Source: Candidatus Yanofskybacteria bacterium RIFCSPLOWO2_01_FULL_49_17
GTDB taxonomy: Bacteria; Patescibacteriota; Minisyncoccia; 2-02-FULL-40-12; GWA2-44-9
Direction: 5' to 3'
DNA: 32,490 bases
Assembly (NCBI GenBank): GCA_001795695.1
Contig: MGKO01000007.1
Location: 35,978-68,467, forward strand
Positions 16,861-26,725 of the stretch are shown here, piece by piece. The translations under genes were made by a program, and so were the position numbers. Numbering within the stretch: the first letter of the stretch is position 1; each line of letters opens with the position of its first letter. Under the pieces are notes generated by a model that saw only the letters and a list, made by a program, of their open reading frames with translations, did no database searches and was not told where the DNA came from.

Positions 16861-18174
16861 ATGCAAAAAGTCGTTATTTTAGGTGGGGGGTTCGGGGGCG
16901 TGAGATGCGCTTTGGACCTATCACGATACGCGGGAGACGAATTGAGCGTCACTTTGATCGACCGCAACAGTTATCATCTCTTCACCCCGACTCTGTATGA
17001 GGTTGCCTCTGCGGCGCCGATAAAAGAGGATGATATGTTTCATCTCCAGCTTCGGCGAAGCATCAGCATCCCGTATTCTAAAATTTTTGCGGGCAAGAAC
17101 GTCCAGCTTGTCCAGGCCGAGATTGCTTCGGTAGATTTAGTAAATAAACGAGTCACTTTTGCTGGCGGAGATCCCGTTAGAAGTAGCCTCGCCGAGGTCC
17201 GAAGGACTCGCGCCTTTGGCGCGAGCGAGACTTCTAACGGGATTGACTTTGACTACTGCGTGCTGGCTTTAGGCAGCCAGTCATCCGATTTTGGTATTCC
17301 GGGGGTTTATGAATATGCCTACCAGTTCAAGACCATCAGCGACGGCTTGGCGTTGAACAAAAAAATGCAGGAATTGTTCCGTGACATTAAAGAGGGGAGA
17401 GCGGCATCCCCCATTTCTTTTCTTATCATCGGAGCCGGATTTACCGGCATTGAACTGGCCGCTGAACTGGCCAGCTGCGCGAGGATGTTAAGCAAGAAGC
17501 TCGGGTTGGACAAACGGGCCTACTCCCTGACCCTATTTGAAGCCGCTCCCAACATCCTGCCCATGGTCCAAGACAAAGAGCGAGATATTATTGTCAAACG
17601 TTTGACCGAGCTCGGGGTGGCCATAATGTCGAACTCATTCATTGAATCGGTAACGAGCGATTCGGTTAAATTAAAAAGCGGTCAAACGGTAAAAGGTTCA
17701 GCCGTGGTTTGGACGGCCGGCGTCCAGCCGAGCGTACTACTGAAGAGCATCCACGGCCTTGAGCTGACGCCAAAGGGAAAAGTTCCGGTGCGGCCTACTT
17801 TAGCCGTATCGGGATTGCCGAGCGTGTATGCTTTGGGGGACGTTATTGAGTTTATTGACCCCAAGACCCAAAAACCTGTTCCCGGTCTGGCCCACACCGC
17901 TCTGGCCCAGGGCCGAGTAACGGCCCGCAACATTGCGACCTCCATCAAAGGCCGACAGCTAAAAGAATATGTGCCGTATTATGATTCATGGATAGCGCCG
18001 GTAGGCGCGAAGTTCGCCGTGGCCCATCTCGGTCAAGGTTCAACCTTGACCGGATTCTGGGGCTGGCTTGTCCGCGGTCTGGCCGATCTGCGTTATTTTA
18101 TGTCCATCCTGCCCCTTAAGCAGGCCTTGGCCCTATTCCGCCGGGACCTGATGCTTTTCTCCAAAAACGACTAG
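16861..18174 (+). CDS. ndh: NAD(P)/FAD-dependent oxidoreductase, type II NADH dehydrogenase-like
   Basis: VVILGGGFGGVRCALDL, FLIIGAGFTGIELAAELA, YALGDVIEF, LAHTALAQGRVTARNI. Confidence 0.93.
   Translation: MQKVVILGGGFGGVRCALDLSRYAGDELSVTLIDRNSYHLFTPTLYEVASAAPIKEDDMFHLQLRRSISIPYSKIFAGKNVQLVQAEIASVDLVNKRVTFAGGDPVRSSLAEVRRTRAFGASETSNGIDFDYCVLALGSQSSDFGIPGVYEYAYQFKTISDGLALNKKMQELFRDIKEGRAASPISFLIIGAGFTGIELAAELASCARMLSKKLGLDKRAYSLTLFEAAPNILPMVQDKERDIIVKRLTELGVAIMSNSFIESVTSDSVKLKSGQTVKGSAVVWTAGVQPSVLLKSIHGLELTPKGKVPVRPTLAVSGLPSVYALGDVIEFIDPKTQKPVPGLAHTALAQGRVTARNIATSIKGRQLKEYVPYYDSWIAPVGAKFAVAHLGQGSTLTGFWGWLVRGLADLRYFMSILPLKQALALFRRDLMLFSKND
17171..17243. mobile_element. 73-bp ATCCCGTTAGAAGT palindromic element inside ndh
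   Basis: 14-bp perfect terminal inverted repeats ATCCCGTTAGAAGT/ACTTCTAACGGGAT with internal hairpins; same ends as 21424-21501. Confidence 0.88.
18030..18052. repeat. 23-bp palindrome inside ndh
   Basis: CGGTCAAGGTT-c-AACCTTGACCG, 11-bp perfect arms, encodes part of GQGSTLTG. Confidence 0.8.
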
Positions 18175-21423: not shown

Positions 21424-21501
21424 ATCCCGTTAGAAGTAAGACGCCCCCAAGGGGGCGTCTGCCGACCATACTCAAAAAGCGGGTCGGACTTCTAACGGGA
21501 T
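21424..21501. mobile_element. 78-bp ATCCCGTTAGAAGT palindromic element (intergenic)
   Basis: 14-bp perfect terminal inverted repeats, internal AGACGCCCCC-aa-GGGGGCGTCT and CCGACC/GGTCGG hairpins. Confidence 0.9.
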
Positions 21502-21535: not shown

Positions 21536-22318
21536 ATGCTGTCGGTAATAATTCCCTCCTACAAAGACCCGTTATTGGTAAAGACGATAGATTCGATTTT
21601 AGAAAATTCTGAAGGAGATATAGAGATAATTGCAGTTTTAGACGGATATTGGCCGTCTTTTGAATTAAGGATTGACCCGCGAGTAAGATATATTCACCTA
21701 GGAAGAAACAGGGGGATGCGCGGTGCGATAAACGCCGGAATTTCTGTGTCCCGGGGAGAGTTTATTATGCGAACCGATGAGCACTGCATGTTCGCCAAAG
21801 GATTTGATACGGCCATGACAGGGGCTTGCCAGCCCAACTGGATAATGACCGCCACCAGATATTTTCTAGATCCCTACAAATGGGAAGTGATGGATATTCC
21901 GCCTTTCATTTACGAAAAATTGAAAATTCGTGACGGCAAATTTGAGGGTCAGAGATGGCCCGGTCGGGACAAGGAGCGCAAGAACATGATGATAGACGAG
22001 ACAATGTCAATGCAGGGTTCGGTCTGGGTAATGCCCCGCAAGTGGTGGGACGAGGTCATTGGCGAACTCCAGACCGAAGGTTACGGGCCGCTGATACAGG
22101 ATTCTCACGAAATGGTGTTCAAAACCTGGCAAGCGGGCGGCAAGCTGATGCTGAATAAAAATACCTGGTTTGCCCACAAGCACTACTCATTTACCAGAAC
22201 CCACCAGCAGGGAACGCCGGAAAACCCGGCTAATAACGAAGCGGGGTATAAATATTCCTTGAATAAATGGAAAGATTATTACGAAAAAGTAATTATACCA
22301 AAATGGTTTCAATCATAA
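21536..22318 (+). CDS. Glycosyltransferase family 2
   Basis: MLSVIIPSYKDPLLVKTIDSIL...IIAVLDGYW...RTDEHCMFAKGFD; paralogous to the next two genes. Confidence 0.9.
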   Translation: MLSVIIPSYKDPLLVKTIDSILENSEGDIEIIAVLDGYWPSFELRIDPRVRYIHLGRNRGMRGAINAGISVSRGEFIMRTDEHCMFAKGFDTAMTGACQPNWIMTATRYFLDPYKWEVMDIPPFIYEKLKIRDGKFEGQRWPGRDKERKNMMIDETMSMQGSVWVMPRKWWDEVIGELQTEGYGPLIQDSHEMVFKTWQAGGKLMLNKNTWFAHKHYSFTRTHQQGTPENPANNEAGYKYSLNKWKDYYEKVIIPKWFQS

Positions 22319-25147: not shown

Positions 25148-25762
25148 ATGAAAGTTTGTCTTGATCTCCACGATTTCAGTATCGTAAATAACCGTCTGGA
25201 GCTTTTGTTGAAATTAAAGGAGCGTTTTCCCGGATTTAAAATTTCTCTTTTTACCGTCGCTACGGACATAAGCGCGGATTGGGGACCGTTTTGTATCCGC
25301 GGGGATTTTTTAAAGGAAATTAAAAAGCATCTGGATTGGATTCAAATAATCCCGCACGGTTTAACTCACAACAAAGAGCTGGAATTCTGCGATTACGATA
25401 CTTTTAAGGATAAAATTATACCGGCAATAAAAGATGCTTTTGACAGAGATGGATTGCCTTTTGAAAAAGGTTTCTGCGCTCCTCATTGGAGGTGGAGCGA
25501 AGGAGTAGTCAGGGCGTTGGATGAAGAAGGATGGTGGGGAGCGGTAGACAGAAATCAGCCGAACATGCTTTCCACAAAAAAGTTCTACAGATTTTCGCAT
25601 AGTTTGCATGAGCCGTATCACGAGTCGGGAGCCGAAGTGTTAAAGTTACACGGACATGTTTACGGACTCAAAAATGATTTAGGCAAATGTCTTGCCGGTC
25701 TTTTGAAATTACCCCAATCGGCCGAGTGGCATTTTGTAACAGAGTTTTTAGAATCCCGTTAG
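25148..25762 (+). CDS. Polysaccharide deacetylase-like protein
   Basis: VCLDLHDFS, IIPHGLTHNKE, GFCAPHWRWSEGVVRALDEEGWWGAVDRN. Confidence 0.75.
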   Translation: MKVCLDLHDFSIVNNRLELLLKLKERFPGFKISLFTVATDISADWGPFCIRGDFLKEIKKHLDWIQIIPHGLTHNKELEFCDYDTFKDKIIPAIKDAFDRDGLPFEKGFCAPHWRWSEGVVRALDEEGWWGAVDRNQPNMLSTKKFYRFSHSLHEPYHESGAEVLKLHGHVYGLKNDLGKCLAGLLKLPQSAEWHFVTEFLESR

Positions 25763-26034
25763 AGCCAATATGTACTATTATGTCTATGTATTACAGAGTA
25801 AAAAGGACAAGTGCCATTATACTGGCTTTACGGTGGATATACGGAAGCGCCTTAAAGAACATAATGAAGGGTTATATGAATCGTGGACAAAAGGAAGAGG
25901 ACCGTTTGAACTAATATATTGCGAAATGTGTAAAAATAAAGAAGATGCGAGAAAAAGAGAAACATATCTTAAAACCGGCATGGGTAAGCGCTACTTGAAA
26001 AACAGGTTAAGGCGCTTCCTGGCTCTAACGGGAT
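25753..26034. mobile_element. 282-bp element: GIY-YIG nuclease gene between 15-bp terminal inverted repeats
   Basis: ATCCCGTTAGAGCCA (25753-25767) and TGGCTCTAACGGGAT (26020-26034), perfect; first 11 bp identical to the 17171 and 21424 elements. Confidence 0.9.
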
Positions 26035-26036
26035 GA
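25770..26036 (+). CDS. GIY-YIG nuclease domain protein
   Basis: MYYYVYVLQSKKDKCHYTGFTVDIRKRLKEHNEG...GPFELIYCEMCKNKEDARKRETYLKTGMGKRYL. Confidence 0.95.
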   Translation: MYYYVYVLQSKKDKCHYTGFTVDIRKRLKEHNEGLYESWTKGRGPFELIYCEMCKNKEDARKRETYLKTGMGKRYLKNRLRRFLALTG

Positions 26037-26725
26037 AACCAGCTATAATCTACTATACTTCAAACCGGGAAAACGAAGAGTTTGAGCAAAAAATCAGGGA
26101 TAATATCTTGAATATTTGTGGCGGCATACCGATTGTTTCCGTGTCCCAAAAACCAATAGATTTCGGGAAGAATATCTGCATCGGCGAGGTTGGCGTCAAT
26201 GACGACAATCTTTTTAGGCAGGTGCAAATAGCTTGTCAAAATACAGATGCCGATTATGTTATAACGACAGAAGCGGATGTCATTTATCCGGAAGATTATT
26301 TTAAATTTATTCCGTCAAGTTTATCCCAAGTTTACAGAAGCGATAATATGTGGATTTTGTATAAGAGCAAGAGAAGGACCAGGTATTATAAAAAAGAATA
26401 TTCTGAAGGTGGCCAGGTAATCGGAAGAGAGTTTTACTTATCCATACTTGAAAAAGCGCTTAAGAATCTGCCCTTGTGGAACCCGCTTGTGTATAAAAAT
26501 GGCGCTTGTCTGGATTGTCCGGATCACCAAGGACCGGTTAACAAAATAAGAAACCCATTTACTTACAGCCGGATAAAATGGCAATATTTCCACACAGACC
26601 CGATCATAAGCGTAAAGACAAACAAGGGATTGAGATCTTATGGCGGAAGAGCTTCAGAATACAGAGGCGACTTACCAGTTTGGGGAAATTGCGAAAACCT
26701 AAAGCAAAGATTTGGAATTTTATGA
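26033..26725 (+). CDS. Glycosyltransferase-like protein
   Basis: MKPAIIYYTSNRENEEF...PIDFGKNICIGEVG...VITTEADVIYPEDYF; paralogous to 28182 and 29449 genes. Confidence 0.7.
   Translation: MKPAIIYYTSNRENEEFEQKIRDNILNICGGIPIVSVSQKPIDFGKNICIGEVGVNDDNLFRQVQIACQNTDADYVITTEADVIYPEDYFKFIPSSLSQVYRSDNMWILYKSKRRTRYYKKEYSEGGQVIGREFYLSILEKALKNLPLWNPLVYKNGACLDCPDHQGPVNKIRNPFTYSRIKWQYFHTDPIISVKTNKGLRSYGGRASEYRGDLPVWGNCENLKQRFGIL

Follow-up and report, generated by a model that had tools for sequence, protein, structure and literature searches.

The 88-aa GIY-YIG nuclease gene at 25770..26036 of the window (by which we mean the whole stretch of 32,490 nucleotides analysed here) lies within what is most likely the autonomous copy of a minimal mobile element, the nuclease in all likelihood mobilising both itself and a set of gene-free copies with the same ends. 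Sequence comparisons across the family reveal inverted ends, a 4-bp target duplication, many unrelated insertion sites, empty sites, co-variation of the ends with the nuclease and a second inverted pair, and we infer that the GIY-YIG nuclease is the driver of mobility. The original prediction was of a small inverted-repeat element with a GIY-YIG gene inserted at a stop/start junction, and it finds strong support in family-wide ends, target duplications and the empty sites of relatives.

In the 4-bp-duplication model the element extends on the + strand from a terminal T to a terminal A (25754..26033). Its terminal arms are a perfect 15-nt match separated by 252 nt, the left at 25753-25767, in which the A at 25753 is flank, and the right at 26020-26034, in which the T at 26034 is a target base. 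The 88-aa ORF (25770..26036, + strand; Pfam GIY-YIG match, E=2e-17) is the only one within the approximately 280 bp, and its stop codon TGA is built with target bases; the coordinates and the Pfam match thus confirm the perfect arms around a GIY-YIG ORF that had been described. The stop/start junction was also correctly read at both ends. The left arm provides the last codons and stop (TCC CGT TAG) of the upstream ORF (25148..25762, + strand, 204 aa), and the right arm codes for LALTG, the final nuclease residues, after which comes the nuclease stop TGA (26034-26036), sharing bases with the ATG (at 26033) that opens the downstream ORF (26033..26725, + strand, 230 aa), the A of that ATG coming from the element. 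Neither neighbour has a Pfam match at 1e-3, the upstream ORF having been called a deacetylase in the original prediction. A second, perfect 13-bp inverted pair has its inner arm, GGAAGCGCCTTAA, within the ORF (25843-25855) and its outer arm (26007-26019) abutting the right terminal arm. The left flank 4-mer AGAA (25750..25753) is probably a decayed copy of the target duplication and the right flank 4-mer TGAA (26034..26037), which overlaps the ATG of the next gene, is the target copy; the duplication is thus imperfect at this locus.

The 613,638-bp source genome, which is related to Candidatus Yanofskybacteria, has 24 copies of the 11-mer ATCCCGTTAGA, mostly as inverted pairs and far beyond chance expectation, the reversed control giving 0 occurrences. 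Most of these pairs delimit segments of 60-120 bp without a gene, which are MITE-like, the window copy being the nuclease-bearing form of about 280 bp; none of the end pairs examined encloses any gene except the nuclease. Two gene-free elements with the same ends as the window copy are a 73-bp element at 17171..17243, which lies in frame inside an ORF (16861-18174, 437 aa) that from reading the sequence resembles NADH dehydrogenase, and a 78-bp element at 21424..21501, upstream of the ORF at 21536-22318. Three gene-free copies of 109 bp (L025, G000:C4:44300-47500), identical in the sequence read, are found in one operon, where they directly precede the start codons of genes reading as ribosomal proteins L24, S14 and S8. 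A similar in-frame use of a gene-free element is likely in the secA gene of another genome (L144 in G017). Internal folding of the gene-free copies past the end arms is only modest (median z of -1.2, with 18 of 65 below -2).

The set of distinct elements with ends of this type numbers 158, of which 88 are gene-bearing and 70 short. An exact 4-bp flank repeat is present in 80 of the 156 testable elements, compared with a mean of about 34 when flanks are permuted, and a 5-bp repeat in a single case; the duplication is therefore of 4 bp and not the 2-bp AT duplication first suggested. The repeated targets are TGAA (51 times), TGGA (8), TGAG (5), and also TAAA, TTTA, TTGA and a small number of other 4-mers. 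An exact 4-bp duplication is lacking in about half of the elements, and in these the left junction often coincides with an upstream TAA stop. An ATG adjoins the copies that end in T:A and a GTG those that end in C:G, so that the start codon begins with the final base of the element; a 5-bp ATGNN duplication was also considered, and gave way to one of 4 bp next to a terminal T:A or C:G pair, since the C/G-ended copies abut GTG. The insertion sites are at many unrelated genes, dozens per genome and mostly at start codons. Gene-bearing copies were oriented by their ORF and short copies with an ATG on the right, which biases the ATG count of the latter, and the right-hand ATG of the short copies opens a long ORF in most.

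Empty sites were sought by comparing joined flanks, minus one duplication, with genomes of the same genus. For gene-free copies, uninterrupted homologous junctions are found in same-genus relatives ahead of genes reading as a zinc transporter permease and ribosomal proteins S2, L2, L18 and L15, and also inside secA; for one nuclease-bearing copy (L057) empty sites are present in two relatives. The gene is accordingly no constant occupant of homologous loci; it is constant occupancy that the original prediction had recognised as counting against it. None of the relatives searched has both neighbour genes of the window copy, where an empty site reading TTAGAATGAAAC had been predicted. These junctions also bear on whether, instead of being mobile DNA, the repeats are hairpins that the host uses at gene junctions for regulation or RNA processing, as their intergenic position, often directly before start codons and within a ribosomal protein operon, might suggest; that reading is contradicted by the same junctions being empty in relatives of the same genus, and the target duplications, the in-frame copies inside genes and the scarcity of G-U pairs (see below) make it highly improbable. 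We note that the junction before recR is occupied in three species, by a gene-free element (L136), by a stretch with a GIY-YIG gene (G020:C20:2293-2854) and by a larger insert (G010:C10), and is possibly a hot spot.

The 22 closest homologues of the nuclease are 58-92% identical to it and are spread over genera and families, and all of those with both sides visible (one is truncated at a contig end) have the same ends or close variants of them. Ends and ORF go together: the close GIY-YIG homologues have these ends, the lack of which in other copies would have told against the original prediction, and the distant homologues have ends of their own. Among the best 80 of 446 relatives, taken from named genomes in a scan with the narrower of two nuclease alignments, 76 have inverted ends and 47 abut an ATG on the right. 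The hosts of these best 80 include Parcubacteria, Microgenomates, Omnitrophota, Planctomycetes, Desulfobacteraceae, a Woesearchaeon and others, and single host assignments may be wrong because the genomes are metagenome assemblies or similar. The median number of end motifs per genome is 26 where the matching nuclease subtype is encoded and 1 where it is not; at least 10 motifs are found in 17 of 22 genomes with the subtype and in 9 of 75 without it (p=1e-8, with kinship ignored). The nine motif-rich genomes that have no matching nuclease subtype would be accounted for if they had lost the gene-bearing copy. Several genomes (G032, G029, G021 and G035) are also richer in a variant end, TCCCGTACGA, than in its reversed control, and some of them encode a nuclease with that end variant.

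The second inverted pair is found at the same ORF position in all 15 of 15 close homologues, with many of its changes falling on third codon positions. When 61 nuclease-bearing elements are aligned, 93.7% of the pairs in the end arms and second inverted pair combined are standard, and over both helices there are 183 two-sided changes, compared with 54 after shuffling and no more than 26 after sliding, and only 16 one-sided changes. The compensatory changes are of the Watson-Crick kind, which points to a constraint at the DNA level, and the scarcity of G-U pairs likewise points to DNA and not RNA. In several other subfamilies, too, a perfect pair of 11-15 bp lies directly against the right arm (for example L079, L097 and L117), and in the short copies the arms pair at positions 11-13 though the bases vary between copies. 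Folding is offered as a suggestion only, since two-sided change could also arise if one and the same protein recognises each arm.

The nuclease belongs by its sequence to the GIY-YIG superfamily, in the Slx1-like stand-alone class. Residues Y6, Y17, G19 and H31 are invariant, R27 and E64 are conserved in at least 90%, and dN/dS values of 0.06-0.18 indicate purifying selection. Its nearest solved relatives in the PDB are UPF0213 proteins (1zg2 and 1ywl) and then SLX1, a structure-specific nuclease. The element encodes no enzyme known to transpose DNA (DDE, HUH, serine, tyrosine or Cas1). A phage origin was considered and rejected, the viral contigs holding no more than 11 relatives, most of them weak; the single homing-endonuclease match in PHROGs was marginal (E=0.0065), and PADLOC gave no match.

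Small GIY-YIG genes at a greater distance mostly have inverted ends of their own that differ from these, the other end types including CCxGGTAGTGAAA with TTTCTACTACCxGG, CCCAGTAAT and CCCCGTGAGATAA. End scores have a median of 28, compared with 16 for randomly paired ends of different loci, and end sequence is correlated with protein distance (Mantel r=0.51, and r=0.47 when the CCCGTTAGA type is left out, each reached in 0 of 5000 permutations with kinship ignored). A natural negative control is provided by a housekeeping-like GIY-YIG gene of the same genome (L038), the end score of which is at background. Gene-free short elements with GTAGTGAA / TCTACTAC ends adjoin insertions of the CCCGTTAGA type (flanks of L135 and L145), and thus other subfamilies have MITE-like copies too. 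This correspondence between ends and protein bears on whether the ends are moved in trans by an unseen conventional transposase, with the GIY-YIG gene as a captured passenger. Known MITE families are often moved in this manner, GIY-YIG chemistry alone does not account for strand joining, and a passenger gene would suit the nine motif-rich genomes mentioned above; we nevertheless think such a transposase unlikely, given several GIY-YIG subfamilies each with its own ends, ends that track protein distance, a nuclease gene under purifying selection, and end pairs that hold no other gene.

Some members of the wider class occupy special sites. The source genome has a second GIY-YIG element with different ends (L037, G000:C6:65802-66038 plus flanks) that interrupts RNase P RNA at the position of the P3 helix, and an element of an unrelated genome (L074) does likewise; the end arms could stand in for the P3 stem, and both loci fall below the Rfam gathering score, as is expected of interrupted copies of this RNA. 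Elements of other subfamilies are found at the 5' end of tmRNA (L117), at the 5' end of tRNA-Ala (L119) and just after tRNA-His (L077). In two others (L071 and L088; G039:C27) the nuclease ORF has no stop and is fused in frame before a pilin-like FTLIE motif, so that a prepilin peptidase could separate the nuclease from the pilin-like part. The nuclease ORF of L083 is also open into the downstream ORF. Insertions in such conserved sequences, and a recR junction occupied in more than one species, are what might be expected of a homing-type endonuclease that cuts its target and has the element copied by recombination repair without transposase-like processing of the ends, which is how GIY-YIG homing enzymes work. 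Homing requires homology on both sides of the cut, however, and the elements occupy dozens of unrelated sites per genome rather than one cognate homologous site; together with the fixed 4-bp duplication, the co-varying inverted ends and the gene-free copies, this renders a homing mechanism quite improbable.

We therefore return to the nuclease as the probable driver, for which the following scheme can be suggested. The nuclease would recognise the ends, perhaps in a folded or cruciform state, a mode suggested by the matching of the arms at positions 11-13 whatever their sequence. It would cut at the element ends and make a 4-nt staggered cut at the target, and joining would be completed by host repair or replication. 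GIY-YIG enzymes hydrolyse DNA and we know of none that joins strands, so that the joining step is unexplained by the known chemistry. An element that lands on a start codon should cause little damage: its right end would give back the A or G of ATG or GTG, the nuclease gene would be terminated by the TGA of the target, and an in-frame TAG for the upstream gene could come from the left end.

Autonomous DNA transposons use a handful of enzyme chemistries, and confirmation of the driver role would add a new enzymatic class of DNA transposon. We regard as evenly balanced the broader proposal of a transposon class with a minimal SLX1-like GIY-YIG transposase, acting on folded or cruciform DNA and targeting start codons, in which many small bacterial GIY-YIG proteins, above all those of candidate phyla, would be transposases and not repair enzymes. 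If this is true, the element (approximately 280 bp, with an 88-aa protein) would be among the smallest autonomous mobile elements, start codons would be near-neutral landing sites for it, and the numerous and scattered small GIY-YIG genes of streamlined candidate-phylum genomes would be explained. Should the nuclease prove not to be the driver, the elements would nonetheless form a large inverted-repeat family, of which a search of the open-access literature yielded no description.

The element resembles IS elements and MITEs in having terminal inverted repeats, a short target duplication of fixed length, gene-free copies and empty sites. It differs from IS elements, which use a DDE, HUH, serine or tyrosine enzyme, in that its sole protein is an 88-aa GIY-YIG nuclease, and also in its size of only about 280 bp, its location at start codons and a second inverted pair that reaches into the ORF. 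Membership of IS200/IS605 was rejected, as there is no HUH Y1 transposase here and there is a 4-bp duplication, IS200/IS605 elements making none; a group I intron or other known RNA was likewise rejected, the locus that holds the window element (L052) having no Rfam match at the gathering score. Rickettsia palindromic elements are palindromic units of about 100 bp that lie between genes and in frame inside proteins, and we know of no enzyme encoded by them; they differ from the element described here in sequence and in host. The free-standing GIY-YIG homing endonucleases of T4-like phages, the mobile elements of which have been reviewed (PMC2988022), are similar in being small nuclease genes that lie between host genes and form their own mobile unit; in contrast to them, the present element has many unrelated sites, inverted ends, a target duplication and gene-free copies, and its nuclease leaves no room for a DNA-binding domain of the NUMOD type. 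Slx1-like stand-alone proteins and UPF0213 have the same minimal domain and catalytic residues and give the best PDB sequence matches. A survey of the superfamily found stand-alone prokaryotic GIY-YIG proteins to be mostly vertically inherited (PMC1564403), whereas the gene described here is enclosed by terminal inverted repeats and has a scattered distribution over phyla. REP and REPIN sequences with their RAYTs provide a further parallel, in that short palindromic intergenic repeats are associated with a small enzyme gene; RAYTs, however, are tyrosine (HUH) transposases (PMC2817692), whereas here a GIY-YIG gene lies between the same ends as the gene-free copies and insertions duplicate 4 bp.
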